Part shown: piece after piece, positions 2,963 through 61,176 of the stretch
How positions within the stretch are numbered: position 1 is the first letter of the stretch
Layout: the number at the start of each line of letters is the position of its first letter
Source: an uncultured Prevotellaceae bacterium
Lineage (GTDB): Bacteria > Bacteroidota > Bacteroidia > Bacteroidales > Bacteroidaceae
Direction of reading: 5' to 3'
DNA: 64,000 nt
NCBI GenBank assembly: GCA_900315095.1
Contig: OMXS01000003.1
Span: forward strand, 248,001 to 312,000
Translations under genes and position numbers: made by a program
Notes under the pieces: generated by a model
What the model saw: only the letters and a program-made list of their open reading frames with translations
What the model was told of the DNA's origin: nothing
Database searches by the model: none

Positions 2963-5059
2963 ATGAAGTATTCAGGAATTGCATTTTTGTTATTTTTAGC
3001 CCCTGTTAGTTCTCATGCTATAGAACCAGACAGTTGCGTCCACCTTAATGAAGTGGTGGTTACGGGACTCACGGGCAACACACACATCAGCCGTTCGCCG
3101 TCACCTGTGTCGGTGATTTCTGCACAACAGCTCAGCGTACATTCATCAACAAACATCATAGACGCCATCGCCAAGCAGCCTGGAGTGTCTCAGGTGAGTA
3201 CCGGAAGCGGCATTTCCAAGCCCGTAATCCGCGGTCTCGGCTACAATCGTGTGCTCGTTGTGAACGACGGAATACGTCAGGAAGGGCAGCAATGGGGCGA
3301 TGAGCACGGAATAGAAATAGACCCTAACAGCGTCCATTCTGTAGAGATAATGAAGGGACCTGCGTCGCTGATGTATGGCTCCGACGCGCTTGCAGGAGTG
3401 CTGATAATGAAAGATGCCCCGCTACTTCCAGAAGGAGAGATGGATGTGGAGGCAATGACGGAATACCAGACGAACAACGGTCTTTGGGCATATAGTCTGA
3501 GTACGGCGGGCCACAAGAACGCCTTCGTGTGGGACTGGCATTGGAGTCAGAAGATGGCTCATGACTATAAGAACAGTTACGACGGCCGTGTGCCGGGCAG
3601 CAGGTTCTCAGAACGTGCTCTATCCGGTATGTTCGGACTCAACGGAGCGTGGGGATTTTCACACCTGAAACTGGGATATTATCATCTCACCCCAGGCATC
3701 ATCGAGGGCGAGCGCGACGAAGAGACGGGCGAACTCTTGTCTGAGGACAACGGCAAACACTACGGACGGCTCGCTCCTTTCCAGCAAGTGAAGCATTATA
3801 AAGCGGTGATTGACAATCAGTTCCGCATAGGGGAGGGCAGACTGAAAACCATCATCGGATATCAGCAGAACCGCCGTCAGGAATTCGAGGAGGCTGATGA
3901 GTGCGAACTCGACTTCATGCTTCACACGTTGAATTACGACATTCGTTATGTCACTCCTGAGTTCAGCGGCGTGACGATGAACGTCGGCGTGGGCGGAATG
4001 TACCAGCGCTCGCTTAATAAAGGCGAGGAATTTCTCATCCCGTCGTATAACCTTTTCGACTTCGGAGTGTTCGCCACAGCATCTAAGTCGTATGCCGACA
4101 GACTGCATATAAGCGGCGGTTTGCGCTACGACACGCGCCATCTGCATAGTAACGCGCTTGAGGAGGAGGGCGAGATGCGCTTCGAGCAGTTCTCGCGCTC
4201 GTTCAACGGACTTACCGGAAGCATAGGAGTGGTGTATAACGTGAGCCGAAACACCGACCTCCGTTTTAATATCGCTCGCGGTTTCCGCGCCCCTAACATG
4301 AGTGAGATGGGCAGCAACGGAGTGCACGAAGGAACGCTCAGATACGAGATTGGCAACCACGACCTAAGCCCAGAGTTCAGTTGGCAGGCAGACCTCGGGC
4401 TTGATTTCTCGACAGACATCTTCTCGTTGCAGTTGTCACTCTTCGCAAACCGCATCAGCAACTTTATCTACTTGCAACGTGACGGCACCGAAATCGAGGG
4501 AATGCCTGTATATCAGAACCGTCAGGGAACAGCCCGATTGCTGGGCGGAGAGGCGCGAGCCATATTGCATCCCTTCCATCATCTGCATTGGGAAAACACG
4601 TTCAGTTATGTGGATAGCCGCCTTCTTGACAAGCCAAAAGATGAGCGTTACTTGCCATTCACACCTGCTCCGCGATGGCTCTCCACCATTCATTATGACT
4701 TCCAGCACCCGTCTTCCGGCCATCAACACTCGGCACGCCTTTTCAACAACGCGTTTGTTGAACTTGAGATGGATTGCAACCTGAGGCAGAATCATTTCCT
4801 CGCGGCTAACGAAACCGAGACGGCAACGCCATCATACACGCTCTTCAACTTCACCGCAGGTACTGATATCCAGTACCATAGCAAGAAGATAGCGTCACTT
4901 TATCTTACCGTTGCCAACATCTTCGACCGCGCATATCAGAACCACTTGTCGCGACTGAAGTATGCAGACATAAACAACGTGACCGGCCGAATGGGTGTCT
5001 TCAACATGGGACGCAATATCTCTTTGAAGCTCATTGTTCCCCTTTCGTTCACCATTTAA
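2963..5059 (+). CDS. TonB-dependent outer membrane receptor
   Basis: A 698-residue outer membrane receptor. A signal peptide (about residues 1-19) precedes the TonB-box-like segment LNEVVVTG. A plug domain follows (about 40-150: SPVSVISAQQL, VIRGLGYNRVLVVNDGIR, VEIMKGPASLMYGSDALAGV), then a 22-strand barrel ending in an aromatic-rich final strand (NISLKLIVPLSFTI). The plug lacks the N-terminal carboxypeptidase-like extension of SusC proteins, so it belongs to the classical siderophore/heme/metal type. The His-bearing plug loop QQWGDEHGIEID recalls ZnuD-like and heme receptors, but the ligand cannot be read from sequence alone. It is monocistronic, with its own promoter and a repeat array just after the stop. 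Confidence 0.9.
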   Translation: MKYSGIAFLLFLAPVSSHAIEPDSCVHLNEVVVTGLTGNTHISRSPSPVSVISAQQLSVHSSTNIIDAIAKQPGVSQVSTGSGISKPVIRGLGYNRVLVVNDGIRQEGQQWGDEHGIEIDPNSVHSVEIMKGPASLMYGSDALAGVLIMKDAPLLPEGEMDVEAMTEYQTNNGLWAYSLSTAGHKNAFVWDWHWSQKMAHDYKNSYDGRVPGSRFSERALSGMFGLNGAWGFSHLKLGYYHLTPGIIEGERDEETGELLSEDNGKHYGRLAPFQQVKHYKAVIDNQFRIGEGRLKTIIGYQQNRRQEFEEADECELDFMLHTLNYDIRYVTPEFSGVTMNVGVGGMYQRSLNKGEEFLIPSYNLFDFGVFATASKSYADRLHISGGLRYDTRHLHSNALEEEGEMRFEQFSRSFNGLTGSIGVVYNVSRNTDLRFNIARGFRAPNMSEMGSNGVHEGTLRYEIGNHDLSPEFSWQADLGLDFSTDIFSLQLSLFANRISNFIYLQRDGTEIEGMPVYQNRQGTARLLGGEARAILHPFHHLHWENTFSYVDSRLLDKPKDERYLPFTPAPRWLSTIHYDFQHPSSGHQHSARLFNNAFVELEMDCNLRQNHFLAANETETATPSYTLFNFTAGTDIQYHSKKIASLYLTVANIFDRAYQNHLSRLKYADINNVTGRMGVFNMGRNISLKLIVPLSFTI

Positions 5060-5068
5060 CCACCTCTA

Positions 5069-5158
5069 GCACTCCCAAAGACCACATCTGGCACTCCCAG
5101 ATGTATATCTTTCGCATGCTCAGATGTATATCTCTTGCATGCTCAAAGGCCATCTTTG
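5069..5158. repeat. 22-23 bp period palindromic array, locus A (4 units)
   Basis: Units start at 5069, 5091, 5114 and 5137 (lengths 22, 23, 23, 22), with a partial fifth at 5159. Each begins GCACTCC or GCATGCTC and continues into an imperfect palindrome such as AGATGTATATCTTT. The units differ from each other, but length and dyad symmetry are kept. The array begins 10 bp after the receptor stop codon. The core AGATGTATATCTTT also occurs in the array at 60969-61102. Confidence 0.85.
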
Positions 5159-5333
5159 GCACTCCGATTAAGCACAAGTTGCAAACCCATTCATAAGGAA
5201 TCGGTTTGCAATTTTGCTTTGTCTATATTGCAATAATGCACATTCTATTGTGTATGTGCGCATTTTCAATCTTTTTAGTTTTAAAATACTTTAAATTGGT
5301 ATGCATGTTATTCTATTATTACATTATTTTATA

Positions 5334-9962: not shown

Positions 9963-9975
9963 GGAGGATAGTGCT

Positions 9976-10518
9976 ATGAAACAAGAAATTATTATAAGTG
10001 GTTTCGGTGGTCAGGGCGTGCTTTCGATGGGAAAGATTCTCGCTTACTCCGGACTGATGGAGGATAAAGAGGTTACGTGGATGCCTGCTTATGGACCAGA
10101 GCAGCGCGGAGGAACGGCCAACGTAACGGTAATTGTGAGCGATGAGCGCATATCGTCGCCTATCTTGAGCAAGTATGACATCGCCATCGTGCTCAACCAG
10201 CCGTCACTCGACAAGTTTGAACCGAAAATCAAACCGGGTGGAATACTCATTTACGACGGTTTTGGAATCATCAATCCTCCTACACGAAAGGATATCACCA
10301 TCTATCGCATCGATGCTATGGACAAGGCTGCCGAGATGAAGAACTCTAAGGTGTTCAATATGATTGTGCTTGGCGGACTTCTCGAGGTTTGCCCCGTTGT
10401 AAGTGACAAGGGTGTGGAGAAAGCGCTCTTCAAGACATTGCCTGAGCGTCATCATGCACTCATTCCATTAAATATGGAGGCTATTACGGCAGGTAGAACA
10501 ATCATCAAAAAGATGTGA
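9976..10518 (+). CDS. 2-oxoacid:ferredoxin oxidoreductase gamma subunit
   Basis: A 180-residue gamma subunit (Pfam POR family). It begins with the typical GFGGQGVLSMGKILA and MPAYGPEQRGGTANVTV and continues as one domain. It ends the delta-alpha-beta-gamma operon and is followed 22 bp later by a strong terminator. The order of four separate subunit genes matches anaerobic Bacteroidales KOR/VOR operons. Confidence 0.93.
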   Translation: MKQEIIISGFGGQGVLSMGKILAYSGLMEDKEVTWMPAYGPEQRGGTANVTVIVSDERISSPILSKYDIAIVLNQPSLDKFEPKIKPGGILIYDGFGIINPPTRKDITIYRIDAMDKAAEMKNSKVFNMIVLGGLLEVCPVVSDKGVEKALFKTLPERHHALIPLNMEAITAGRTIIKKM

Positions 10519-14375: not shown

Positions 14376-15542
14376 ATGAAAAAGTTATTAGTATTGTTTG
14401 CTGCAGCAGCAATGACTCTTACCGCATCAGCTCAGGCTCTTGAGGAGAGTAAGACTTTCGACAACTTCTACATTGGCATCAATGGTGGAGTTTCTACAAA
14501 GATGACTCAGCAGAGCGGCTGGCTCGGCGGCCTCAACCCTAACGCAGGTCTCCGCATTGGTCGTTGGTTCACTCCTGTATTTGGTATCGCAGTTGAGGGA
14601 AATGCATATTTCTCAAACAAGCCTCTCCCATCAACAGGTACTGCAGTTCGCGCTACTAACGTAGGTGGTATCGCTACTGTTAATCTGAGCAACTGGTTCG
14701 GTGGATATCCTGGCGAGCCACGCGCATTTGAAGTTGTTGCTGTTGGTGGTCTTGGATGGACACACTGGTTTGGCAACGGTGGCTTCCCACACAACATCAA
14801 CAACACTACAGCTAAGGCAGGTCTTGACTTCACATTCAACCTCGGTGCTAATAAGGCATGGCAGGTTTACATTGAGCCAGCTGTAACATGGGGTCTCAAT
14901 GGTCCTCAGTATCTTGATTATGAAGACAATTTTGGCAACCTGTTTAAGTCATACACAGGCACCAAGTTCAATGTTAACGACGCATTCTTCCAGCTGAACG
15001 CAGGTATCGTTTACAAGTTCAAGAACTCTAACGGTACTCACAACTTCAAGGTTGCTGACCTCCGTAACCAGGCTGAGATCGACCGTCTGAACGCTATCAT
15101 CAACGGTCTGCGCAACGACCTCGATGCTAAGGATCGTGAGATTGCTCGCCTCCAGAAGCTCCTCGACGAGTGCAACGCACGCGTTTGCCCAACTTGCCCA
15201 GAGTGCAAGGAAGTTGCTAACCTGCAGCCAACCGTTCTCTTCCGTCAGGGTAAGAGCGTGATTGACCCAGCACAGTTCGCTCCAATCGAGCTTATCTCTA
15301 ACTACATGAAGAATCACCCAGAGGCTAAGGTTAAGATTGACGGTTATGCTTCTCCAGAGGGTTCACTCGAGCTCAACAAGAAGCTGTCTATCGACCGCGC
15401 TGAGGCTGTTAAGAACGCACTTGTTAAGAAGTACAAGATTGCTGCTGACCGTCTGACCACTGAGGGTCATGGCCCAACAGACAAGCTCTTCGAGCAGGTA
15501 GAGTTCAACCGCGTAGTTACATTCCACGACACTACAAAATAA
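14376..15542 (+). CDS. OmpA family outer membrane protein
   Basis: A 388-residue protein: signal peptide (1-19, ending ASA), an eight-strand-type barrel (about 25-215), a short coiled-coil region rich in heptads (IDRLNAIINGLRNDLDAKDR, about 235-265), a Cys-rich hinge CPTCPEC, and a C-terminal OmpA peptidoglycan-binding domain (VLFRQGKSVID onward, with DGYASPEGS and DRAEAVKNAL). It anchors the outer membrane to the cell wall. Codon use is strongly biased, consistent with abundant expression. It has its own promoter and terminator. Confidence 0.95.
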   Translation: MKKLLVLFAAAAMTLTASAQALEESKTFDNFYIGINGGVSTKMTQQSGWLGGLNPNAGLRIGRWFTPVFGIAVEGNAYFSNKPLPSTGTAVRATNVGGIATVNLSNWFGGYPGEPRAFEVVAVGGLGWTHWFGNGGFPHNINNTTAKAGLDFTFNLGANKAWQVYIEPAVTWGLNGPQYLDYEDNFGNLFKSYTGTKFNVNDAFFQLNAGIVYKFKNSNGTHNFKVADLRNQAEIDRLNAIINGLRNDLDAKDREIARLQKLLDECNARVCPTCPECKEVANLQPTVLFRQGKSVIDPAQFAPIELISNYMKNHPEAKVKIDGYASPEGSLELNKKLSIDRAEAVKNALVKKYKIAADRLTTEGHGPTDKLFEQVEFNRVVTFHDTTK

Positions 15543-24158: not shown

Positions 24159-24174
24159 ATTGTAAGTTGTTATA

Positions 24175-24269
24175 GGAGTTATGGACTTAAGAAATTAAGG
24201 AGTTAAGACAAATGACGGCTCTATAGCAGAACTATTGTCATAACTCCTTAACTACGTTACTTCTTAACA
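24175..24269. repeat. Octamer-armed inverted element between recJ and recQ
   Basis: The left arm has octamers GGAGTTAT, GGACTTAA, GAAATTAA and GGAGTTAA (24175-24206). The right arm (24238-24269) is octamers of the complementary type: TCATAACT, CCTTAACT, ACGTTACT, TCTTAACA. The loop is about 30 bp. It lies just 3' of recJ and 5' of recQ on the minus strand and resembles the element at 22169-22230. Confidence 0.8.
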
Positions 24270-26101: not shown

Positions 26102-26202
26102 GCAAATAAAAATGACATATTCGCTGTTTACAAGAAAAATCACATTTTTTTTGTTTCTTTAAACCATCACGCGGCACTATAAAATGCCATTAATGCCTTC
26201 TT

Positions 26203-26291
26203 GCATCCTCACTTGTGGCTTTTGGCATCCTCACTTGTGGCTTTTGACCTCCTCACTTGTGGCTTCTTGCGATGCCAAAGATATACCTTTG
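26203..26291. repeat. 22 bp period tandem array, locus B (4 units)
   Basis: Units begin at 26203, 26225, 26247 and 26269. The first two are identical over 22 bp and contain CCTCACTTGTGGCTTTT; the third differs at four positions. The fourth has the same frame but a different core, CCAAAGATATACCTTTG, close to the palindromic cores at loci A and E. It lies about 50 bp beyond the peptidase terminator. Confidence 0.85.
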
Positions 26292-26340
26292 GGAAATGTA
26301 ACGAGAGCCTTCGTTTTTCATGTGGCAATCATATATAAAC

Positions 26341-26411: not shown

Positions 26412-27611
26412 TTAGATGCCGAGCTTCTTACGGATGTCCTTTGGAATGGCGTTCTTATTCACGAGGTAGTCCATTGTCTTGGCTGCCACGAAAGCCTTGG
26501 TCATATACCATGTGCCTTTATAGTCGCCATACTCGCCCCAAGAGTTCTTCACCATGTAGTACTCCTTGCCGTTTTGGTCCTTTGCCAGACCATAGATATG
26601 CATGCCGTGGTCGTCGGTAAGCTCCCAGTTGTCGAAACCTTCCTGGCGCATTTCCTGTGTAGGAACAATCTCAGGAGCGTTCACTCCCAGAGAGTCAAGC
26701 TTGCTCTTCTTTTCCGTAGAGGAAAGCTTCAGCCAGCGAGCGGCGTCACTTCCTGCGAGGCTCTGCACAGCCTTGGTGTCGTAGGCGATGCCCAGACCCT
26801 TGCGTGTGAAGCCTTCCTCGCTAACGTCACCTCCCCATGCGATGGTGTAGCCCTTGTCAAGTGCGTTGTCGATGATGCGCATCATCTCGTCCATAGGCAC
26901 GTTGTAAGAGCGGTCCCAGCGCCAGTTGTCCTGTACTTCCACGGGGAATGCGGTATAGAATGGATGGTGAGTGTAGCTTGTGATGCTTACATAGTCGTCC
27001 CAGTTGATGCCGAGGCTCTCTGCAAACTGCTTCGGGGTGTATGTCTTTCCCTCGTAAACGAAGGTCTCAGGACACTTGCCCAGATATGCGTCGAGTATGC
27101 CCTGAAGGCCCGGTTTCCATTGGTTGGAAATCTTCTTAGCCTTGCTCTTGGCCACCGCGTCAACGTATGGAGACATCACCTCAAAGAACTCGTTGAAGTT
27201 AGCGAGAGAGTCGCCCTGCATGGTGCCTGGCAGAGGCATAGCGTTTTCAGGGCAGATGCCGTGGCGTTTGATAATGTCGAGCACGTCGCCTGCCGAACCT
27301 CCCTGTGAGAACTGGCTGTCGCCGTGCATGCGGACGGTAAGAACGGCACGCTCCATGTAGTCTTTATTAGCAATGAACATTTCGCAGAGGTCGTACGTCT
27401 TGCCTGTAGCCTTCAGTATCTCGCTCTCGAAGAATGATAGTGTAGAGTAGGCCCAGCATGTGCCAGAGCGGTTCTGGTCCTTGATGCTTGTGATAGGCAA
27501 CTCCTTGATTGTTGTGAACACAGGCTTGTTCTTGTTCTCAGCCCCGTCCTGTGCCATTGCTCCTGTGCTGAACATCGCAGCCACCAGAGCCAACGTCATG
27601 AATCTTTTCAT
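26412..27611 (-). CDS. Exported C1 family (bleomycin hydrolase-like) peptidase
   Basis: A 399-residue papain-fold cysteine peptidase of the PepC/bleomycin hydrolase type (C1B). The catalytic Cys is in GTCWAYSTLSFFESE (about 51-65), the His in HGMHIYGLAKD (about 335), and the Asn in MVKNSWGEYG (about 354). Unlike cytosolic PepC it has a signal peptide (residues 1-20, ending AMAQ), so it acts in the periplasm or outside the cell. No long propeptide is apparent. Similar exported enzymes are common in oral and gut Bacteroidales. Confidence 0.92.
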   Translation of the reverse strand: MKRFMTLALVAAMFSTGAMAQDGAENKNKPVFTTIKELPITSIKDQNRSGTCWAYSTLSFFESEILKATGKTYDLCEMFIANKDYMERAVLTVRMHGDSQFSQGGSAGDVLDIIKRHGICPENAMPLPGTMQGDSLANFNEFFEVMSPYVDAVAKSKAKKISNQWKPGLQGILDAYLGKCPETFVYEGKTYTPKQFAESLGINWDDYVSITSYTHHPFYTAFPVEVQDNWRWDRSYNVPMDEMMRIIDNALDKGYTIAWGGDVSEEGFTRKGLGIAYDTKAVQSLAGSDAARWLKLSSTEKKSKLDSLGVNAPEIVPTQEMRQEGFDNWELTDDHGMHIYGLAKDQNGKEYYMVKNSWGEYGDYKGTWYMTKAFVAAKTMDYLVNKNAIPKDIRKKLGI

Positions 27612-33532: not shown

Positions 33533-36500
33533 TTAGTAACTGAACTTGAACACTTCCTCTCCTGTGCTCAGCAGATAGACATCGTTGTGAGTAAGCGGAA
33601 TGAACATCGTGTTGCCGGTTGCCTCCTTCTTGAACTCTGTTATGCCGTCAGAGCGGAAGAGACGTACTTTCTTTCCGGCAACAAGCCCGTCAAGACGAAC
33701 TCCGTTGTCAAGTTTTGTCACCTTCACCTTGTGACCTGTCGGGTCATCTGCAACCGAGCGTACGATAGTGGCCGGGTCTTCTGTCGGGAAGAGGTTGACG
33801 AGAGACGGATTCTCCAAGGCGTGTACGTTCCTTACAGCAGCAACCATCGACTCTGTGTTGGGGTAGTAGCTCCAGTCTACGAGGTGGCAGTTGATGTAAG
33901 CCTGTATCGGTTCGGTTACGCCGTCGACATAGAGTGTAGCGAATGCTTTTCGAACACCGGCGATTTCTTCGAAATCAGATGCGGTAACTATTGCTACGGC
34001 GCTGTCGCTCAGTTCCTCGAAACTGTCGGGTGTGTCAAACACACCTACTGCTGCCACCATGTCGTCATGCAGTTTCGCATGGTCGATGAGTTCTACTAGG
34101 AACACGTTCTGACCATTCTCAATCGTATGGCTTAGCACATTACACTCCACATCCTCCAATGTTACGCGTACCTTCTTCTCGGCGCTCGCCTGACGGAGAT
34201 AGCTCTTCGCCTTGTTGCGCGGATGTGCATTTGTATTGAAGATATTGTCAAATTCCACTATTACCTGACTGGTTACATAACCGTCGAACGAGTCGTCAAT
34301 GGGGTATTGTATTACGAACTCCTGGTCGTCGTAGGGCTTGATGTGAGAGTCTTCTATCTCAAAGGTTTGACCATTGATTATGGCCGTTACCTTCTCTATT
34401 GCGGATGTTCCGGTATTGTCTACTGTAACGATGATGGGCAGAGTGCTGCTTCCGAGCAGCGCCTCGCTTCCGTATGACACATTCCATGTATAGCTGTTGC
34501 TGAAGAACTTGTCGTTATACATCAGTACGGAACCGCTGGTGGTGATGTCGGTAAGCGTATATACGGCACATATATGGGCATCATCAAGATATCCGTCGAA
34601 ATCGGTAATCACAAGGCTGTCAATCTCTGCTCCCAACGTTACCGGGTCAGTTATTTGCAGGGCGTTAGATACGTAGATGCGCGAAGCGTGCAGCATCATA
34701 GTGGCATCCTTCGCAATCTTTTTCTTTCCGTCATTGCCGCGGTACACATTATTCATCTGTGTCCATAACACGGCAAAGTTGTCAAGGCCCTCTGAGTCGT
34801 CATCGCTGACAATCTTCACCTTGCCAGGCAAATTTTCACCAACGCCGAGGTCATTGCCCTGAATGCCGTCACCCTTGCCTGTCATGGCGATAGTCTTGAC
34901 ATAGATGTCGTTTATGGAGTCGTTCTTCTCATAAATCATCGCTATCACTCCATGTTCGCCAACGCGCTTCATGTAGAAATCCTTCACTTTCAAGGCCTCG
35001 TCATAATAGCTGATGTTGTCGCTGCTCAACGTCTTAGAAGCATAGCGCATCACAGGCTTATCCATGTCGTTGGCTACGAGTGTTGTAGCCACAAGCACGG
35101 TGTCCTTACGCATGATGAGGTCATACTGGTGTACGATGTGGTCCTTGTCCAGGTTATAGTCGTATAATTGTACTGGGTCGCTCCATCTGGTACCGTTATA
35201 TGTCCTCAGCAGCAACTGTCCCTTGAACTGAAGGTTGTCCAGAGAGTCGGCCGACACGTTTTCGTCGATGACATCAAATTTACCATGCTGGTATACGACA
35301 GCGGCGTGGCCGTCTTCTTGTATGGCTACCACAGGCTTCAGGTCGGCATTGCCGTCGTTGCCGTTGGTGTCGGAGATGTCATGATAGGTCCAACTGCCAT
35401 TGCCCTGACGCATCGCAGTCTTTATACGTGTTTTTTGTTGTATCTCGCTGTTCTTGCTGACAACGTTTTGCTCGTTTATCTGGCTGCCGTCAATAGCCTC
35501 TGTCATCTGCTCGTATGCCACAATCTCATAATTGCCTTGCTTTGAACGCATATTGTTGTATGCGGGCAGGCCATCGGAAGACAGAGCTTGCTTTGTAACC
35601 TCGTCATTTTCAATGGTGGCCAGCATGATCTTGTCGTCGTTATAGTTACCAGCAGTCCCCATGTCATTATATACAACCCTGTTCTCGCCAAGGAAATGAG
35701 GATTGGCGTCTACCGCTAAGTCGTTGACAATGGCCTTGCCGATAAGCTCGTTGCTTTCTGGTGCTGGAATGGGGCGATATACCTGTGCAAACGGTTTTGC
35801 TTCATTCTTTTTAATCCAGTAAGGGAATTCGTCATGGAACGGGTTGGTGTTTTCATCAGGTATCAATACCCTTCCTCCAAGGCGGAATCCGGCATTGGCG
35901 GAGAACTGGAATATAGGAGACTTCAAATTGGCATAGGCTTGTCCTACTATAATAAACATGATGACACCCCCATATCCATATTCCTTGCGGCTGAAAAGAC
36001 TTTCAATTCCGGCGCGTCCGCCAAACTTTGCACCAACGCGCAGACCAGCCTTCAGGTTGACGACACCTGACAATTTGAAACCTCCAATTCTTTCTGGTGT
36101 CTGAATTTCAAGTGTTGCACCTGCTGCTAACTTGCCGCTGGCGTGTGCGAAAAAGCCCATGTTATCGCTTGACATCGACTCTGTGTCATCGCTGTCATAC
36201 GACTTTATACCGAAATCAGCTTGTAAAGATCCCTCAACATTAGTAGTCAGAGAGATATAGTCGCTAAATTTCCTCAGTACTTCTTTCAACTTGTCGAAGC
36301 GTTTCGCGAAATCTGACTCTGAATTTGTATTTGCGATGTCCCATTGCATGGCATAGCCCCAGCCAATCTGTCCGGCTGCCTCACTCACCTGGAAACGCTT
36401 AAGGTCGAGATCCGGCACCGGCATCTTGAAACAGAGGTTGGCACCGCCAAAGAATCCTACACCGATGCGGTTGGCTTGAACGTCGAAGATGTCATCAGCC

Positions 36501-38524
36501 TCGTCGTATATCCATTCATCGAGGCCCACTTCTTCTCCGACAAACTGCGCCTTTCTATTTTCGCCCCACTTGAATCTGTCATAATCGTCACCGTTCCTTA
36601 CATCCCGTCGTGCTTCGCTTACTTTTTCGCTTTCACCTTCGCGGTCGCCGCGGTCATATGACAGACCAATTTTCAGAATGCCCAGGCTTTTCCTGATGTC
36701 GAATATAAGGCTTGTTTTTAGACTTAAAGGCTTTAATGAGAACTTGAACTCTGCGGGCAATTTCATGTCATAGCCGGCATCGGCAAATGCACCACTAATT
36801 TTACTTTCGTCATTTGCTCCCGAGTAGTTGTCGTCGACCTCCTTTTGGGCTGCTTCATTTGTGGCGTCGCGGTCGAAATACAAATTACGGAAGAAGGGGA
36901 AACGGGCATATTCCATGTCGTTGGCCTTCAAAGAAAGCTTGGCCACCTCGCCCTTGTTGATGACGTCAACCAGATTGAAACGCACGTAGAAATAGTCATA
37001 GGTGAATGACGTGAATTCGCTTGCCCTGACCACATCAACAGTCTGGTCGGTTGCCGTGCGCTCTGTTTGCGTGGCTACATTGGTGGCTGTCAGCACGCAG
37101 TTGGGAGTGGCGTTGCCTTTCGGACGTGAGAAAGACACCTCCAGTTGGGCAAAATGTTCCACAACCTGATTGTTCAACAGTTTTGGGAACTTGAAGCCGC
37201 AGTCGTCCATATAGGACAGCGTGTCGGCCTCAACCTTTCCCGAGATGTCAACCTCATCGATGCTGCACAGTCTATGGTCGATGTTGTTACGGATTATAAC
37301 GGCGCGTTCGTCATTAAGGTTCAGGAAGTGCTGGTCGCTTATGGTGATGCTGTTGTTGCTTACTGTTCCTTTCCGCATGTTAATGAGCGCCTGGCAGCGG
37401 TCTATATTCACTATGCCTTCCTCGTCGGTGGCTCCGTCATATTTATACAATACCGGCAGGTAACCATCTACGATAATCTCAATATATGACGGGTTGCCCA
37501 TAGTGAGAATCTTGTGCTGCTTGCTCTTGGCGTCATAGCCGATATATCTGACTGTAGGGTCGTAGACGCGGTTGCCGTCATAGTCGACGCGCTCAGGATG
37601 CAGGGCGGCGTTCCTGATAGGCTTGCCCTTCTCGTTGAAAAGCGAAACGAAGAGAGTGTCGTATTTCTCATACAGTCCTGTACCTATCCAGTTGAAGTTC
37701 ATCATCTCGCGTCCTTCATGCTTGTCGAGGTCGAAGGTGGGGGAGATTTCCATGTATCTCATCCTGTCGTTCAGGTCGATACCGGTATGCAGCTTGTTCT
37801 TGTCAAGGCGCAGTTTCTTCTCGCCGCTCATCAGAAACACATCCAGCAGGTCGCTGTTAGCTGGTACATAGAAGCTCTGGAACTTGTCATCCTTCAGGTC
37901 CAGACGCGACACGTTCTTCTGCAGATTGCCGTCGCCGTCCATATAACCTGTGACATATTCAAGGGTATATGTCTCGCCTGTCACCTGTCGCTTCTGGTCG
38001 AGCATGAAGAGATACAGGTTCTCGTTGTCCCAGTCATAGACATAATACTTGAAACAAATCTTGTCTGTAGGGTCGTCCACACGTGACACTATTATTTCAT
38101 ACGGCTCGGTCTTTGCTTCCGGCGCGTTGACGAAGAAGAAGTCGTCAACCGTTTGCGAAAGGGTGTCCTTTCCGTTTCTCACCAGCACTTTGTAGGTGTT
38201 CTGTGTATTGCCGTTTTCATCAATTCTGAAGCACAGTAATGTGTGGTCGCGCATCTTCCAGAACTGTCGCTTGTCTGTCAGGTTCTTCATCCTTGTCTCA
38301 GCGAACATTCTCTTCAGAGCAGTCACCTCGGCAAGGTTGCCGTCCATTGCTATCGTACTGCCAGTTGCCACTTCGCGCCAGTTCAACCCTGACCCGTCTT
38401 TTTCTATGTCGTCAAGGTTTGACACGTCTGTGACATTGTTTGCGTAATATAGTTTGAAGCTCTGTGCTTGAGCGACAAACGCAACACACAACATTTGTAA
38501 TACAATTAGTGTGAACTTTCTCAT
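33533..38524 (-). CDS. Very large secreted protein of unknown function
   Basis: A 1663-residue protein with a signal peptide (1-20, ending AQAQ). No catalytic domain is recognised. The N-terminal third has beta-sandwich-like segments (DKICFKYYVYDWDNENLYLFML and ALIN-type repeats). The middle (about 560-900) contains FGGANLCFKMPVPDLDLKRF and a Gly-rich membrane-strand-like stretch. About 1340-1440 holds a CARDB-like adhesion fold (LPIIVTVDNTGTSAIEKVTA). The end (GLVAGKKVRLFRSDGITEFK to DVYLLSTGEEVFKFSY) resembles a type IX secretion-type C-terminal sorting segment, suggesting a surface protein; T9SS use is an inference. It lies 48 bp after the peptidase gene pepP on the same strand. Confidence 0.8.
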   Translation of the reverse strand: MRKFTLIVLQMLCVAFVAQAQSFKLYYANNVTDVSNLDDIEKDGSGLNWREVATGSTIAMDGNLAEVTALKRMFAETRMKNLTDKRQFWKMRDHTLLCFRIDENGNTQNTYKVLVRNGKDTLSQTVDDFFFVNAPEAKTEPYEIIVSRVDDPTDKICFKYYVYDWDNENLYLFMLDQKRQVTGETYTLEYVTGYMDGDGNLQKNVSRLDLKDDKFQSFYVPANSDLLDVFLMSGEKKLRLDKNKLHTGIDLNDRMRYMEISPTFDLDKHEGREMMNFNWIGTGLYEKYDTLFVSLFNEKGKPIRNAALHPERVDYDGNRVYDPTVRYIGYDAKSKQHKILTMGNPSYIEIIVDGYLPVLYKYDGATDEEGIVNIDRCQALINMRKGTVSNNSITISDQHFLNLNDERAVIIRNNIDHRLCSIDEVDISGKVEADTLSYMDDCGFKFPKLLNNQVVEHFAQLEVSFSRPKGNATPNCVLTATNVATQTERTATDQTVDVVRASEFTSFTYDYFYVRFNLVDVINKGEVAKLSLKANDMEYARFPFFRNLYFDRDATNEAAQKEVDDNYSGANDESKISGAFADAGYDMKLPAEFKFSLKPLSLKTSLIFDIRKSLGILKIGLSYDRGDREGESEKVSEARRDVRNGDDYDRFKWGENRKAQFVGEEVGLDEWIYDEADDIFDVQANRIGVGFFGGANLCFKMPVPDLDLKRFQVSEAAGQIGWGYAMQWDIANTNSESDFAKRFDKLKEVLRKFSDYISLTTNVEGSLQADFGIKSYDSDDTESMSSDNMGFFAHASGKLAAGATLEIQTPERIGGFKLSGVVNLKAGLRVGAKFGGRAGIESLFSRKEYGYGGVIMFIIVGQAYANLKSPIFQFSANAGFRLGGRVLIPDENTNPFHDEFPYWIKKNEAKPFAQVYRPIPAPESNELIGKAIVNDLAVDANPHFLGENRVVYNDMGTAGNYNDDKIMLATIENDEVTKQALSSDGLPAYNNMRSKQGNYEIVAYEQMTEAIDGSQINEQNVVSKNSEIQQKTRIKTAMRQGNGSWTYHDISDTNGNDGNADLKPVVAIQEDGHAAVVYQHGKFDVIDENVSADSLDNLQFKGQLLLRTYNGTRWSDPVQLYDYNLDKDHIVHQYDLIMRKDTVLVATTLVANDMDKPVMRYASKTLSSDNISYYDEALKVKDFYMKRVGEHGVIAMIYEKNDSINDIYVKTIAMTGKGDGIQGNDLGVGENLPGKVKIVSDDDSEGLDNFAVLWTQMNNVYRGNDGKKKIAKDATMMLHASRIYVSNALQITDPVTLGAEIDSLVITDFDGYLDDAHICAVYTLTDITTSGSVLMYNDKFFSNSYTWNVSYGSEALLGSSTLPIIVTVDNTGTSAIEKVTAIINGQTFEIEDSHIKPYDDQEFVIQYPIDDSFDGYVTSQVIVEFDNIFNTNAHPRNKAKSYLRQASAEKKVRVTLEDVECNVLSHTIENGQNVFLVELIDHAKLHDDMVAAVGVFDTPDSFEELSDSAVAIVTASDFEEIAGVRKAFATLYVDGVTEPIQAYINCHLVDWSYYPNTESMVAAVRNVHALENPSLVNLFPTEDPATIVRSVADDPTGHKVKVTKLDNGVRLDGLVAGKKVRLFRSDGITEFKKEATGNTMFIPLTHNDVYLLSTGEEVFKFSY

Positions 38525-40266: not shown

Positions 40267-41118
40267 ATGAAATTCAAGATAAACAGAAATACAGGATTGG
40301 TACTGGAGGGCGGTGGAATGCGTGGCGTTTTCACCTCAGGAGTGCTTGATGCGTTCATGAAGCACGACCTGTATTTCCGTTATGTCGTGGCTGTCTCGGC
40401 AGGTGCATGCAACGGCGTGTCGTACATGAGCCATCAAATCCGCCGCGCAAGGATAGCAAATATCAATATGCTCGGGCAGTATGACTACATCGGGCTGAAA
40501 CATCTCGTAACGCAGGGCAGCATCTTCGACCGCAAACTCCTTTACGAAGACTTCCCCAAGAAACTCGTTCCGTTCGACTGGGAGACATACACCAAAAGCG
40601 GGGCAGAGTTCGAGGTGGTTACTACGAACTGTCTGACAGGCCGCGCAGAGTATCTCTCCGAGTATAAGAATCCGCAGAGGTTGAACGATATTATCATGGC
40701 TTCGTCGGCCTTGCCTTTCGTTAGCAGTATCGTTGAGGTGGACGGCGTGCCGATGCTCGATGGCGGAATAGTTGACAGCATCCCTATAATGCGCTCGGTG
40801 GAGAAGGGGCACGACTTCAATATTGTCATTACGACTCGCAATTTCGGCTATCGTTCCAAAGGCAGGGACATCAAACTCCCGTCGCTCATTTATGATGACT
40901 ATCCACGACTGAGGGTTGCCTTGAGCCATCGTGTTGAGGCTTATAACGAGCAACTGGACTTGCTGGAGCGCATGGAGAGATGGGGGGACGTCGTGGTTAT
41001 TCGTCCCGAACGCCCTATGGAGGTAGGTCGCGTCACTCGCGATACCGATAAACTGGAACGCTTGTACGAAGAAGGTTTCCGCCTCGGAGAGGAATTCTTG
41101 TTGAGCGTTGAGCGCTGA
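40267..41118 (+). CDS. Patatin-like phospholipase
   Basis: A 283-residue serine hydrolase with a catalytic Ser-Asp pair. The oxyanion loop LEGGGMRGVFTSGVLD is at about 12-27, the nucleophile elbow VSAGACNG (Ser about 45) follows, and the Asp is in MLDGGIVDSIP (about 165). No signal peptide is present. Expected to act on membrane lipids in the cytosol. Its last codons (LLSVER) and the stop are encoded inside a TTGAGCG heptamer array that continues after the gene. Confidence 0.92.
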   Translation: MKFKINRNTGLVLEGGGMRGVFTSGVLDAFMKHDLYFRYVVAVSAGACNGVSYMSHQIRRARIANINMLGQYDYIGLKHLVTQGSIFDRKLLYEDFPKKLVPFDWETYTKSGAEFEVVTTNCLTGRAEYLSEYKNPQRLNDIIMASSALPFVSSIVEVDGVPMLDGGIVDSIPIMRSVEKGHDFNIVITTRNFGYRSKGRDIKLPSLIYDDYPRLRVALSHRVEAYNEQLDLLERMERWGDVVVIRPERPMEVGRVTRDTDKLERLYEEGFRLGEEFLLSVER

Positions 41119-41273
41119 GCGTTGAGCGACAACAGCCCTGTAATATGGATGAACTTCGCTCCGCTCTGCGCTTACTGCTTATATGATTGAAGCGAGTCTT
41201 AAGAAAGCGGAGCGACTAAAGGAACTCTCAACATTCAACAATTTTCGCTCAACCTTCAACCCTCAACCTTCAG
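41101..41273. repeat. Heptamer-armed inverted element spanning two stop codons
   Basis: Left arm: TTGAGCG, TTGAGCG, CTGAGCG and TTGAGCG at 41101, 41108, 41115 and 41122. Right arm: CGCTCAA, CCTTCAA, CCCTCAA and CCTTCAG from 41246 to 41273, the same unit inverted. The patatin stop (41116-41118) is in the left arm and the trmD stop (41270-41272) in the right arm. Further units (CTCAACATTCAACA) precede the right arm. Confidence 0.85.
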
Positions 41274-41944: not shown

Positions 41945-42010
41945 TAAACGAGTTTTTATTTATCTAATCACGCTCAACCTGCAGGGGAAAGCAATCGTTC
42001 GGGAAGGGCC

Positions 42011-42057
42011 AATTGTCAATTATTAATTGTCAATTATTAATTATCAATTATCAATCA
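42011..42057. repeat. Heptamer array (AATTATC/AATTGTC) at the alcohol dehydrogenase stop
   Basis: Six units of 7 bp run from 42011 to 42052 (AATTGTC, AATTATT, AATTGTC, AATTATT, AATTATC, AATTATC). The next bases are the stop codon of the dehydrogenase (TCA at 42055-42057, minus strand). The same unit, inverted, recurs at 44101-44128. Confidence 0.8.
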
Positions 42058-44089: not shown

Positions 44090-44100
44090 AACTCACCGAG

Positions 44101-44181
44101 ATAATTGACAATTGATAATTGATAATTGAAAGGCGCGGCAAAGCCGAGAGTAGAGTGAAGGAGTGGAGAGTGGAGAGATGA
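44101..44181. repeat. Two adjacent heptamer arrays
   Basis: Four units ATAATTG, ACAATTG, ATAATTG and ATAATTG run from 44101 to 44128. A second array in one phase follows from 44147: AGAGTAG, AGTGAAG, GAGTGGA, GAGTGGA, GAGATGA. Both have period 7, with unrelated units. Confidence 0.75.
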
Positions 44182-44183
44182 CA

Positions 44184-44249
44184 TTGTCAGGAACCACTCC
44201 TGACCTACTCAGAAGCCGTTCCTGACAACCTCACTTGTGCTTTCTTACT
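44184..44249. repeat. 22 bp period palindromic array, locus C (3 units)
   Basis: Units begin at 44184, 44206 and 44228. Cores are the dyads GTCAGGAACCACTCCTGAC and TCAGAAGCCGTTCCTGA; the third unit holds CCTCACTTGTGCTTTC. The same three-unit order is found at 47570-47657 on the other side of the CotH gene. The array ends at the stop of the 54-residue protein. Confidence 0.85.
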
Positions 44250-44435: not shown

Positions 44436-47435
44436 TTACTTCCGGTTGTTTACCATCTTCTTGCCGTTCACAATAATTATACCCTTGTAGTTCTTGTCAA
44501 CACGCTGGCCGTTCAGGTTGTATGCCTTTCCGTCTGTCCATGCATCATTGTGAACACCCTGAATAGCGGTAGTCTCGTCGAAGAAGATTTCGTCGATGCC
44601 TTCCTTAGCCATTTGTGCTGACGACAGTTGCAGATAGCTCTTGCCAATGCCGAAGGTGAAGCCTGCTGCCTTCTTCTGGAAACCAACCCTTTCCGTAGTA
44701 TACGAGTAGAACAGACCATAGTAGGCATTGTCATCATCAGGCACGGTGAACGCTGCGGTAGCAGTTGACTTAAGCAGGTTGCCGGAGAGGTCATCGTATG
44801 AAGCACTTACGTCGGCAACAGGAATCTTATAATCACCTTTAGGTCCTTCTACGACGAGGCCCGTCTCTGCGGGAACCTTGTACACCTGCTTCAAAGCAAA
44901 GCTATTGCCGTTCTTCGCGGTCACAATGTAGGCCTCAACGGGAAGGTCGGTGAAGTCGAGAGCCTTGGTGCTGCTGTACGAAACGGCTCCACGTATACCA
45001 ATGGCAAGCTGAGGTTTATCGACCTTGACAGCGTTGATGCGGAGTTTCGTGCATGATGGCACGTCGAACTCGTAGGTGGATCCTTCTTTATATTCCGGAG
45101 CACCGTTTCCTATTTGGATTTGCCATCCTGTGACTGAGAAATCGTTTTCGATGTCGTTCTTGGCTTCGAGGGTAATGTGACGGTCTTTGAAAAGCTTGCC
45201 GTCGAACACACCCTTGGTGAGCTTGATGCCGTTGACGTACACTTCGTCGGGTATGTTGGTGGCGTCCACGTCCTTGTTGATGGTGACGGGAATGGCAGTT
45301 CCGAGATTCCAATGGCTACGAATGAACTCGTAGAAGTAGTCTGTGCGAGAATTATAAGTGGTCGTTTGTCCCCACCAGCCTTGCTCGGTGTATCCTGTGA
45401 GCCATTTCTTGGCATCATTGAACTTGTTGATAATTTCCTGCTCGCTGTTTCCTCCTGAGGAAGGATACTTTTGGCGGTGGGCAACGAACTCTTTCAATGC
45501 CTCATTCTTGATTATGTCAATCATTTCACCGGTTCCGTTAGCATTCATGAAGTCACCCATAAAGACGCAACACTTGTCGACGAACAGGTTCAGGATGTCC
45601 TGATTTTGGAGCATGTTTTTAATCAGGCGCGTGGCTGGTTCTGTGAAAGCCCAGGCATTACCGCTGTCATAATTTTGATTGTAAAGTAATTCAATGGTGT
45701 TGTAATCTGGTTTTCTGCCATAGAGTCCAAGTCCGAAATCGACATCCTTGGCGATGAAGCGCCATCTCTTGGGCAGGCCCGACTCTTTGTCCTTGTTGTT
45801 GGGGCGCCAGAACACGATATTGTTGCCGGGGAAGTCTATGTTGCCATAGAAGAGGTTCATAATCACGATATTCAGATACTCGCTCACGTCCATCCACTCC
45901 TCCCATTTTGCCTTGGAGTGATCACCTTGCTCGATGTTGGTGTAGAAGTCCTTGAAGGCATTGTAGTTTTCCTCCTTAGTACCTTCTTTCAGTTCCTCGA
46001 TATACTTATCTACGCCATTCTCTTTTTCATGGGAAATCTCAATCATGTCGATATCCTCAAGGCCGTTGTAGTTGCTATAGATGTTGTCTGCATTTGAGCG
46101 CTCGCGGATGTTGAGCATGCCCTTGTACACACCATTGATGTATAGCACAGCCGTATGGCCGGCCTGCCAGTCGATGTCGGTATTCTGTCCCATCGTGCGC
46201 TGGATGATGAGGTCGCGGAAGTACAGGTCACCAAAGTCGTTACCGCCATCGCGAAGTGAGAACGACTTGAACTCGGTTATGCCCGGCTTCTGATCGTGGA
46301 AGAACTCGTATGAGAAACGCTTTTTGTTGGGGTCGGGGTCAAAACGCTTATTGGTATAGATGGCCATCGACTTGAGGGCATTCTTACGCGACTCTCCTCC
46401 TTGGATACGTGTCTCGCCGAGTTGGTTGATGACACTTTTGCCAGCGGCATCGAACATTTCAATATTGATGGGACGACGCCAGTCCACCTTGTTTGTCTTG
46501 CTGGTGTTGTTAGGATAGATGCCAAACGCATTATCGTATATATACTCTTCTTTTGTCTGGATAGAGATGATGGGGACCGTCACGGCCCTTGGATGGAAGA
46601 TGTACGACTGGGCGGTGCTGACGGGTGACAGATAATCCTTGTTGAACAACTTGGCACGAATCACCGTGGTTCCTTCGATGTCGATGCCTTCACTATCGTT
46701 ATACAGCGAACTCGAGCCCGTAGGCTGAAAAACGTACGTAGTCTCAAGATCGACCGTAGTCTCCTCAAATTTACCCGTAGGCTCTGAACCGTCGGTGGTA
46801 TAGCAGATAACAGTACCTTCGGGAGCACGTTCGGGCTTCGACAGATGAAGTTTGAAAGGAATGCCGTCCTCAAATACCTGACCAGGATAGTCGAATCCGG
46901 GAGCACCCAGAATATGGTCGGCAGCTACCACGCCGCCTGCGTTTGCCGCTCTAGGTGTAGAGGTCAGTTCGTAGCCCCAATTGCCACTGGCATCACGGCC
47001 GTAAGCAATATCGGGCGCAGGCATCACGGGAATGCCTACAACGCTGCTAACAATCGTGCTGCCCTCGAAAAGATAGAGGCTGCCCCCCTCCTTGTCAGAG
47101 TCCAGACGGAAGTCGGTGTGAAGTCCATTTTCCTCCTTGTCGCAGTAGATGATGATATAGCCACCAGCAGGAACCGTTATATTGGAAGGCAGCGCCCAAG
47201 CCTTATCTGCCTTATTCTTAGTACCTATCTTGTAGCTCCCGAGGCTGATGTCTTCACTGGTGGGATTATACAATTCCACCCATGAATCGGGGAATTCATG
47301 AATATTGTCCCTGACGCATTCAACGTTCGACTGCATCAGCTCGTTGATGACCAGATGTGTGTCTTGTGCGTCTTGCGCGGTGGCCGACATCGTGGTCATG
47401 GCCAGCAACACAGCAGCAGAAAAAAGCTTATTCAT
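44436..47435 (-). CDS. Secreted lamin-tail / CotH-kinase family protein
   Basis: A 999-residue surface or secreted protein with a signal peptide (about 1-20). Domains in order: a lamin tail domain (about 27-150: LVINELMQSNVECV, WVELYNPTSEDISLGSYKIG); a chitobiase C-terminal-like beta domain (about 200-290: CYTTDGSEPTG, TVIRAKLFNKDYLSP); and a CotH protein-kinase-like domain (about 310-700, with GGESRKNALKSMAIY, NGVYKGMLNIRERSNADNIY and FIAKDVDFGLGLY). The end (GKAYNLNGQRVDKNYKGIII and on) is the Prevotella-type C-terminal anchoring/sorting segment. CotH proteins phosphorylate secreted proteins in spore formers; a target here is unknown. Confidence 0.88.
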   Translation of the reverse strand: MNKLFSAAVLLAMTTMSATAQDAQDTHLVINELMQSNVECVRDNIHEFPDSWVELYNPTSEDISLGSYKIGTKNKADKAWALPSNITVPAGGYIIIYCDKEENGLHTDFRLDSDKEGGSLYLFEGSTIVSSVVGIPVMPAPDIAYGRDASGNWGYELTSTPRAANAGGVVAADHILGAPGFDYPGQVFEDGIPFKLHLSKPERAPEGTVICYTTDGSEPTGKFEETTVDLETTYVFQPTGSSSLYNDSEGIDIEGTTVIRAKLFNKDYLSPVSTAQSYIFHPRAVTVPIISIQTKEEYIYDNAFGIYPNNTSKTNKVDWRRPINIEMFDAAGKSVINQLGETRIQGGESRKNALKSMAIYTNKRFDPDPNKKRFSYEFFHDQKPGITEFKSFSLRDGGNDFGDLYFRDLIIQRTMGQNTDIDWQAGHTAVLYINGVYKGMLNIRERSNADNIYSNYNGLEDIDMIEISHEKENGVDKYIEELKEGTKEENYNAFKDFYTNIEQGDHSKAKWEEWMDVSEYLNIVIMNLFYGNIDFPGNNIVFWRPNNKDKESGLPKRWRFIAKDVDFGLGLYGRKPDYNTIELLYNQNYDSGNAWAFTEPATRLIKNMLQNQDILNLFVDKCCVFMGDFMNANGTGEMIDIIKNEALKEFVAHRQKYPSSGGNSEQEIINKFNDAKKWLTGYTEQGWWGQTTTYNSRTDYFYEFIRSHWNLGTAIPVTINKDVDATNIPDEVYVNGIKLTKGVFDGKLFKDRHITLEAKNDIENDFSVTGWQIQIGNGAPEYKEGSTYEFDVPSCTKLRINAVKVDKPQLAIGIRGAVSYSSTKALDFTDLPVEAYIVTAKNGNSFALKQVYKVPAETGLVVEGPKGDYKIPVADVSASYDDLSGNLLKSTATAAFTVPDDDNAYYGLFYSYTTERVGFQKKAAGFTFGIGKSYLQLSSAQMAKEGIDEIFFDETTAIQGVHNDAWTDGKAYNLNGQRVDKNYKGIIIVNGKKMVNNRK

Positions 47436-47569: not shown

Positions 47570-47657
47570 TTGTCAGGAACCGTTCCTGACCTTCTCAGAA
47601 ACCGTTTCTGACAACCTCACTTATGTCTCCTGACAACTTTGCTAATGTTTTCTAAGG
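47570..47657. repeat. 22 bp period palindromic array, locus D (4 units)
   Basis: Units start at 47570, 47592, 47614 and 47636, all exactly 22 bp. The first two have perfect or near perfect dyads: GTCAGGAACCGTTCCTGAC and TCAGAAACCGTTTCTGA. The third has CCTCACTTATG, like locus B and C units. The fourth is degenerate. The array begins 54 bp past the stop of the BspA-like gene. Confidence 0.88.
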
Positions 47658-60021: not shown

Positions 60022-60053
60022 CATCCGAATAGCGGATTATGTGTTTTTATCGC

Positions 60054-60938
60054 ATGACGAGAGAGAAGGAAATATATAAGGTGACGCTGGTGGGCAGCGC
60101 GGGCAACGCGGCTCTGCTCACGTTTAAGTTTATCGCGGGGGTGCTGGGCAACAGTTCGGCGATGATTGCCGATGCTGTACACTCGCTTTCCGACTTCGTT
60201 ACCGACATCCTCGTGCTGGTCTTCGTGAGCATCAGCGCCAAGCCGCAGGATGAGTCGCACGACTATGGCCACGGCAAGTTTGAAACTATTGCCTCGTTTC
60301 TTATTGGCTTGGCGTTGGTGGCCGCGGCAACGGGTATTGTTGTGTCGGGTGCGCTGAAACTTATCGACTGGTGGGGCGGTGCTCAGCTTGAGTCGCCTGG
60401 TTGGATAGCGCTATGGGCAGCTCTTCTCTCAATTGCCATCAAGGAACTCCTTTATCAATATACCGCACGAAAGGGGAAAAAGCTCGACTCTCAGGTAACG
60501 ATAGCCAACGCCTGGCATCATCGCAGCGACGCACTCTCGTCGGTAGGAGCAGCACTTGGCATCGGCCTGGCTATTTGGCTGGGACAGCGCTGGACGGTAC
60601 TCGACCCGCTGGCGTCTATCGTGGTGGGACTGATGCTTGTGAAGGTGGCCTACGACTTGCTGAAGCAGAGCATTAACGAACTTACCGAGAGTTCGCTTCC
60701 CGCCGAGACGGAACAGGAGATAGAGCAGATAATCCTCTCTTTCGACGATGTGCAGCAGCCTCATAACCTGCGCACCCGCCGCATAGGCAACCGCATCGCC
60801 ATAGAGGCGCATGTGAGGATGGACGGGCAACTGCCATTAAATATAGTTCACGAACGTGCCACAACCATAGAGCGGAAACTAAAGGAACGCTTCGGTCCCA
60901 ACACGCACGTCACCCTTCACATGGAGCCTGTAAAGTAG
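60054..60938 (+). CDS. Cation diffusion facilitator family transporter
   Basis: A 294-residue inner-membrane metal-proton antiporter (start at 60054; ATG 60039 is possible). Six membrane helices lie in the first 200 residues. Metal-site residues are in DAVHSLSDFVTD (HxxxD), DYGHGKFET and HHRSDALSSVG (HxxxD). The cytosolic C-terminal ferredoxin-like domain is about 200-290. Zn(II), Fe(II), Mn(II) or Co(II) export is expected. Confidence 0.94.
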   Translation: MTREKEIYKVTLVGSAGNAALLTFKFIAGVLGNSSAMIADAVHSLSDFVTDILVLVFVSISAKPQDESHDYGHGKFETIASFLIGLALVAAATGIVVSGALKLIDWWGGAQLESPGWIALWAALLSIAIKELLYQYTARKGKKLDSQVTIANAWHHRSDALSSVGAALGIGLAIWLGQRWTVLDPLASIVVGLMLVKVAYDLLKQSINELTESSLPAETEQEIEQIILSFDDVQQPHNLRTRRIGNRIAIEAHVRMDGQLPLNIVHERATTIERKLKERFGPNTHVTLHMEPVK

Positions 60939-60968: not shown

Positions 60969-61102
60969 GTGCGAAAGATGTACCTTTTGCCGTGTCGTTT
61001 GTATATCTTTCGGGGTGTCAGAAGTGTCTTTTGAGAGTGTCAGAAGTGTCTTCTGAGAGTGCCAGATGTATATCTTTGGCGTGCGAAAGGCGGCTTTTGG
61101 GA
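60969..61102. repeat. 22-23 bp period palindromic array, locus E (6 units)
   Basis: Units begin at 60969, 60992, 61015, 61037, 61059 and 61081, each opening GTGCGA, GTGTC or GTGCCA. Cores: AAGATGTACCTTTT, TTTGTATATCTTTC, AGAAGTGTCTTTTGAG, AGAAGTGTCTTCTGAG, AGATGTATATCTTT, AAAGGCGGCTTTTGG. All have dyad symmetry, with different bases. The array starts 30 bp after the CDF stop. Confidence 0.9.
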
Positions 61103-61176
61103 TTGAAATCTGATATTTGTAAAAATACGGTCTTAAATTTCCTGCATGTTAATTCGTGAATGTTGGTAGTTTTGTA

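Follow-up and report, generated by a model that had tools for sequence, protein, structure and literature searches.

What keeps the length and the symmetry of a repeat constant while its bases change? The question is raised by five short tandem arrays in a 64,000-nucleotide stretch of DNA (the window) from an uncultured Prevotellaceae bacterium (Table 1). A sequence-only reading of the window had described these arrays as rows of 22-23 bp units, most of them holding an imperfect palindrome, and had proposed several origins for them, which we weigh below.

Table 1. Positions of the five arrays of the window and of the gene that two of them enclose.
Feature	Position	Strand	Description
Array A	5052..5186	+	5-6 units of 22-23 bp; begins at the stop of ORF 2963-5059(+)
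Array B	26187..26296	+	5 units of 22 bp, CCTCACTTGTGGCTTTTGGCAT type
Array C	44182..44247	+	3 units of 22 bp; near-copy of D
CotH/LTD-domain ORF	44436..47435	-	999 aa; between near-copies C and D
Array D	47573..47638	+	3 units of 22 bp and one degenerate unit
Array E	60969..61105	-	6 units of 22-23 bp; 3' of ORF 60039-60938(+)

Five arrays and a dispersed family

The five arrays are as the sequence-only reading described them. An iterated profile of 22 columns, seeded with 20 units and allowing steps of 21-24 bp, recovered all five with 3-6 units each. TRF at a minimum score of 30 detected A, B, D and E as period 22-23, and returned no row of period 22 or 23 for C. The profile places array E at 61018-61105, and two more upstream units, from about 60969, were recognized by eye; the ORF on its 5' side may, by the look of its sequence alone, encode a cation diffusion facilitator. 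Array B is located past the 3' end and the terminator-like hairpin of ORF 26412-27611(-). The linker polarity of array E is reversed relative to that of array A. Array D holds perfect palindromes of 17-19 bp (dyad score 1.0). Arrays C and D are not independent loci but near-copies, identical at 55 of 67 positions and in the same orientation on either side of one 999-aa gene. The palindromes are separated by linkers of about 1-7 nt and the units abut; a CRISPR array was rejected on the grounds that no unique spacers of constant length lie between the repeats. Rfam gave no match across the window at gathering thresholds.

Applied to 456 kb, comprising the window and 392 kb of the same genome (hereafter the home genome), the period-constrained profile listed 25 arrays, the five of the window and 20 others, of which 24 scored at least 20. 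The reversed sequence gave a single match of 18.1, a contrast that is flattered by the training of the profile on real arrays. Among the 21 arrays of this sample that scored at least 26 (94 units), 54 of the 73 steps between units were 22 bp, 17 were 23 bp and 2 were 21 bp. The unit of this family, here termed the TCA family, is TCA-N11-TGA followed by a linker of about five bases, with information concentrated at few positions. A distinct class of 7-8 bp direct repeats also occurs in the window (24169-24207, 41100-41128, 42010-42055 and 44100-44129), with units such as CAATTAT, GTTGAGC, GATAATT and GTTAAGGA, and 60 TRF rows of period 7 were obtained in the 456 kb; these repeats recall the intergenic TAACTGA heptamers that reportedly occur elsewhere.

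The linking of the loci into one family was borne out by a sequence-only model built from 24 three-unit segments, which revealed a dispersed family in the 3.24-Mb home genome, with at least 146 matches at E<=0.01 corresponding to at least 100 distinct loci, and at least 49 loci at E<=1e-5. These counts are lower bounds, as 150 of 1186 candidates were scored, and the match of the window itself is there by construction, since the window helped to build the model. Under stricter filters, with 84 candidates scored per genome, there were at least 98 matches in the home genome, 74 in its close relative G028, 50 in G004 and 33 in G010, and one to three matches were listed in each of eight further genomes of the genus. 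None was listed in the remaining 25 of the 37 same-genus genomes (the home genome counted) or in 24 genomes of other Bacteroidales families. A wider survey overturned the view that the arrays are a species-level repeat, which had rested on a 27-base pattern (up to three mismatches) present only in the home genome and G028 among 61 genomes. One exact two-unit pattern had no match in viral contigs. No description of such arrays was found in CC-licensed PMC papers, which is not proof that none exists.

Period and symmetry across the genus

A period of 22 bp and a dyad recur across the genus, and the sequence families differ between species and between the loci of one genome. TRF was run on the 456 kb of the home genome, on 716 kb from seven same-genus genomes with 0.7 kb from an eighth, and on 273 kb from other Bacteroidales families. 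In the non-coding DNA of the home and same-genus samples 44 arrays had a period of 22, compared with 8 at period 21 and 7 at period 23. With all samples combined the non-coding figures were 45 at period 22, 8 at 21 and 9 at 23, periods 14-20 together contributed 36 arrays and periods 24-40 together 12, and coding DNA held two arrays at period 22; the other families accounted for one non-coding array at period 22 and two at period 23. By genome, the non-coding period-22 arrays numbered 13 in the home genome, 15 in G026, 7 in G028, 5 in G016, 3 in G024 and 1 in G009. Period 23 added two in the home genome and five in G026, which thus carried 20 period-22/23 arrays in 160 kb, and at period 21 there were five in the home genome and one each in G026, G028 and G016. 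The 40 kb sampled from each of G003 and G029 yielded no array of period 22 or 23. An extra 244 kb from 20 other genomes of the genus, some pieces of which were shorter than 1 kb, gave six TRF rows at period 22, equivalent to five arrays in four genomes, and four rows at period 21. The units of G026 (TGTATAACTGATTATACA, TGATACTGGAATATCA, TTGGACAGACGTGTCCAA, AAACGTATATACGTTTT and TACCCA..TGGGTA) are like those of the window in length and symmetry, but otherwise bear no obvious resemblance to them.

The dyad symmetry that had been claimed for the family was also evident. Of 51 non-coding arrays of period 22-23, 21 had a stronger dyad than column-permuted arrays (p<=0.05), in contrast with 2 of 7 at period 21, 2 of 22 at periods 16-20 and none of 11 at periods 24-40; in coding DNA the figures were 1 of 3 (period 22-23) and 1 of 6 (periods 24-40). 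The other 30 of the 51 were not significantly palindromic. A spectrum based on structure alone (three dyads, at least 6 of 7 pairs, fixed step) found four arrays at 22 and two to four at each of 15-21, and thus showed no peak; the units are too imperfect for this test. Different families abut within single arrays in the home genome (contig C24), G028 (C36:253111) and G026 (locus L073). The dyad step across such a change of family is not clean (14 bp at C36:253111), and therefore we make no claim that the register is kept. The possibility that the units provide stop codons in all frames (TCA..TGA, TTA..TAA) was discarded, as several families lack them. Another idea was that the TATATCTTTG units might be promoters of the Bacteroidetes -7 TAnnTTTG type.

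The varying bases around a constant dyad had been read as a sign of compensatory change. If paired mutations kept the symmetry, an arm should match the other arm of its own unit better than arms taken from elsewhere. In the TCA family (94 units), however, own-arm pairing was 3.97 of 7 positions and pairing with arms from other arrays 3.94 (permutation z 0.24), and the corresponding values were 6.29 and 6.22 of 8 for the AAAATAG family of G028 (24 units at 10 loci; p=0.37) and 6.50 and 6.26 of 8 for the TTAC family (22 units; p=0.16). Only the outermost column pair, 1-17, was clearly above shuffles (z 2.7), and the inner pairs 7-11 and 8-10 were below them (z -2.5 and -4.6). RNAalifold predicted no pairs in the 24 three-unit segments. 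Compensatory change within units therefore found no support in any of the three families. Left and right arms use one vocabulary (AAAAG, AGAAG, AGATG, ACTTG, AAAGG and their complements); units are free combinations of half-sites drawn from a small pool. We conclude that the dyad is a property of a shared pool of half-sites set in alternating orientation. Two such half-sites of 11 bp, oppositely oriented, make up the repeating unit of 22 or sometimes 23 bp, and about two to nine units stand in a row. At the level of whole families one locus points the other way. At C26:189107 the units are TTACAA..TTGTAA in the home genome and TTACCA..TGGTAA in G028, and both arms have changed together, by replacement or concerted change. 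It should be emphasized that dyads with varying bases need not signify RNA covariation, since free exchange of half-sites looks alike.

Position and turnover of the arrays

In five genomes none of 82 arrays lies within a called gene. Convergent spacers carried arrays most often (25 of 99), codirectional ones less often (40 of 319) and divergent ones least (10 of 120), with gene calls from a simple purpose-made caller. The statement that the arrays are always 3' of a gene is consequently too strong, as 10 of the 75 array-bearing spacers separate divergent genes. These counts, and the spacer comparisons that follow, include weak arrays that scored 26-31 and are perhaps false (for example C26:231818, C36:220092, C36:289430 and C36:377307), together with the putative array C36:323021.

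Arrays differ in presence and sequence between the home genome and its close relative, yet they recur at the same orthologous spacers. The region C26:175-320 kb of the home genome is collinear with contig C36 of G028. At spacers A and B both species have arrays, whose sequences differ, the array of G028 at the spacer orthologous to A being of the AAAATAGCCTATTTT family; array E is kept in G028 with mosaic half-units, and units that are hybrids between the two genomes were recognized by eye. Over 58 one-to-one spacers of at least 60 bp each, G028 had an array at 4 of the 5 that carry one in the home genome, compared with 4 of the 53 that do not (Fisher p 0.0008), and restriction to non-divergent spacers of at least 150 bp gave 4 of 5 versus 3 of 23 (p 0.008). 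Arrays of G028 with none in the home spacer include those at C36:289974, 321512, 264291 and 313323, where the gaps are 59, 68, 122 and 154 bp, respectively, in the home genome and 210, 223, 211 and 113 bp in G028. Two home loci (L022, at 9893-10025, and L037) and one of G028 (L029) have in common, by eye, a head of about 90 bp of array units beginning GCGCAGAGTTATCCTTTGATGTTGCGAAAGATG, which suggests copying between loci. A run of N interrupts a TTACAA array near 315.3 kb of C36, possibly because the repeat left a gap in the assembly or because the stretch was masked. In the window the interval 33533-38524 encodes a 1663-aa ORF with no Pfam match at E<=0.001, most of which is within a 4.7-kb segment that is represented by 268 bp in G028.

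Recurrence extends beyond this pair of genomes. In the 400 nt on the 3' side of orthologues of the array-E gene, a lag-22/23 array was present at 7 of 80 named loci compared with 2 of 844 other windows, although the latter are mostly coding, so that the contrast is partly one of coding with spacer DNA and the control is generous. The seven loci (L188, L207, L219, L221, which is G028, L259, L260 and L265) represent at least four sequence types, L259 and L260 being alike. With up to 30 loci per gene, lag-22 arrays were found 3' of orthologues of the genes at E (3/30), B (5/29, home genome included) and A (2/30). The gene at 14376-15542, which has no 3' array of its own in the window, showed a lag-22 signal in 3 of 29 orthologues, one of them marginal; it is thus not a clean negative control, and the claim that particular genes are special is weakened. 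On the 5' sides of the compared genes the figures were 0/30, 2/29, 0/30 and 1/30. Arrays therefore prefer the 3' side, although no gene stands out clearly as a special site. The strongest argument for selection comes from recurrence in orthologous spacers, which is more marked than a neutral satellite would require and suggests selection or a hotspot.

Weighing the explanations

It could be argued that the arrays act in RNA, as 3'-end elements made of tandem hairpins in the tail of an mRNA, which would stabilize or terminate the transcript. Consistent with this proposal, arrays are biased towards 3' ends, and their predicted folds are more stable than those of dinucleotide shuffles (mean z -2.99 and -3.14 on the two strands, n=79, against -0.85 for control windows), with z below -2 in 44 and 49 of the 79 arrays by strand and in 26 of 134 controls; of 27 TCA-family arrays, 20 fold better on the purine-richer strand, and this strand is the sense one for 13 of 19 that are codirectional. 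The two strands, however, fold equally well overall, the sense strand doing better in only 26 of 42 codirectional arrays, there is neither covariation nor a consensus structure, and ten divergent spacers carry arrays. Of 94 gene ends that face an array, moreover, a crude scan found 24 with an intervening terminator-like hairpin (12 of 94 in the antisense control), and by eye such a hairpin follows array A and precedes array B. The case for a transcript-end element is weak, and we consider this explanation quite improbable. A BIME-like DNA-structure element under selection is unlikely. Here rows of half-sites one helical turn apart would act at gene ends, as a supercoil sink, a platform for gyrase or nucleoid proteins or a bidirectional insulator, and selection at these ends would keep period and symmetry and leave the sequence free. 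Such an element is in keeping with a period that is constant across families, with the order of convergent, codirectional and divergent spacers and with the recurrence of unrelated sequences at the same orthologous spacers. Against it, several spacers hold an array in the home genome or in G028 but not in both, any given gene is without an array in most species (2/30 to 5/29 per gene have one) and the gene without its own 3' array has a similar rate (3/29).

Dispersal to about 100 loci, spacers that hold an array in one genome and not in the other and the common head of L022, L037 and L029 are what a non-autonomous transposable repeat would produce, whether a REP moved by a RAYT or a BrickBuilt-like MITE moved by an IS5-type transposase. 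The RAYT-like enzyme that had been suggested does exist as a gene, but it is associated with a different repeat. The single Y1_Tnp match of the home genome (C26:61492) is a 180-residue ORF (L012, about 1270-1890; C26 near 61.3-61.9 kb) with two GTAG-tagged repeats, GTAGGGGCG..GCGCCC, in inverted orientation upstream of it. These repeats are unlike the arrays, and with the ORF they make a REPtron-like unit. Similar GTAGGGGCG repeats lie in G028 spacers at C36 near 242.5 and 319.5 kb. No Y1_Tnp match was present in G026, G024 or G003, yet G026 (with its 20 arrays in 160 kb) and G024 carry period-22 arrays, and we have rejected the RAYT as driver. The AAAATAG arrays, in addition, have no common non-repeat flank that could be seen by eye, and transposition of either kind is decidedly improbable. 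Very improbable indeed is the view that the arrays are recombination sites, attC-like in logic, that admit gene cassettes into spacers. It draws on the exchange of half-sites and on C and D, direct near-copies around the CotH/LTD gene, which is absent from the collinear G028 region, where a 405-bp gap holds one array. Where gene content differs between the two genomes, 5 of 17 sites carry an array in at least one of the species, as do 9 of 58 one-to-one spacers. The excess is suggestive at most; one of the five is based in part on low-scoring arrays, and one on an array of G028 alone. The same observations are accounted for by ordinary homologous recombination between arrays.

Among known systems, one that is close in form is the BrickBuilt minisatellite/MITE of Porphyromonas gingivalis, described as intergenic 23-nt tandem repeats without spacers that carry a leader, a tail and terminal repeats like those of IS5, and reported from no species other than P. 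gingivalis and P. gulae (PMC4596501). The present arrays share with it the order Bacteroidales, an intergenic tandem period of 22-23 bp, imperfection within and between elements and predicted stem-loops; they are set apart by having many unrelated families with a common period and dyad where BrickBuilt has one sequence family (PMC4596501). No leader or tail with terminal inverted repeats was recognized by eye in the array flanks. The comparison with REP/BIME elements made by the sequence-only reading was a fair one, given extragenic palindromes, 21 of 51 arrays significantly palindromic and only 10 of 75 spacers divergent. REP/BIMEs are intergenic palindromes of 20-40 bp, mainly between unidirectional and convergent genes (PMC3733652, PMC12306157), and the arrays resemble them in being intergenic, dispersed, crowded in opposite orientation and mostly not between divergent genes (PMC3733652, PMC12306157). 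Unlike REP/BIMEs with a RAYT, they are not conserved in sequence within the genus and occur in genomes without a Y1_Tnp match; no GTAG/CGTC tag was seen by eye beside the palindromes of the printed arrays, and linkers vary between families. PINSR, a 188-bp repeat of Prevotella intermedia/nigrescens with 177 and 184 copies in two strains, is likewise a lineage-specific intergenic Prevotella repeat without terminal inverted repeats but is a single 188-bp sequence and is not described as an array of tandem 22-bp palindromes (PMC4755523).

The arrays have the look of a bacterial satellite DNA with rapid turnover, more than that of a classical mobile repeat or an RNA element. We give about an even chance to the explanation that they are an intergenic satellite of palindromic units, which recombination and hairpin-assisted slippage probably remake. 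Arrays would lengthen, shorten and alter through local DNA events. These would be replication slippage and template switching, both helped by hairpin formation, together with unequal recombination among units and with gene conversion or ectopic copying from one locus to another. If a half-unit is swapped at the dyad, the symmetry would persist without compensatory mutation, and a length of 22 bp may be that at which a short hairpin can form and still slip, or may correspond to two helical turns, although this is an argument only. The recurrence, the 30 arrays of period 22-23 that are not significantly palindromic, the missing peak in the structure-only spectrum and the two sampled genomes without such arrays count against the satellite. 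Arrays would survive chiefly in promoter-free spacer DNA, and hence show both 3' bias and recurrence. The satellite may also have a useful role, for example as a bidirectional hairpin or as a bending or supercoil-absorbing element. A bolder reading, which we think unlikely, is that of a sequence-free chromosomal element, in which the 22-bp register and mirror symmetry are selected at particular gene ends throughout the genus and the letters are replaced wholesale; a cell factor or a replication process would then have to measure 22 bp and symmetry without reading sequence. If true, this would make the arrays the bacterial equivalent of structural satellite DNA.

Bacterial palindromic repeats are usually defined by their sequence and transposase. 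Here they are defined by period, dyad and place, and sequence searches would miss the kinship of these arrays. If the satellite explanation is right, the arrays offer a natural system in which to follow the birth, homogenization and replacement of tandem palindromes in compact genomes, and they raise the question of what sets the length of 22 bp.
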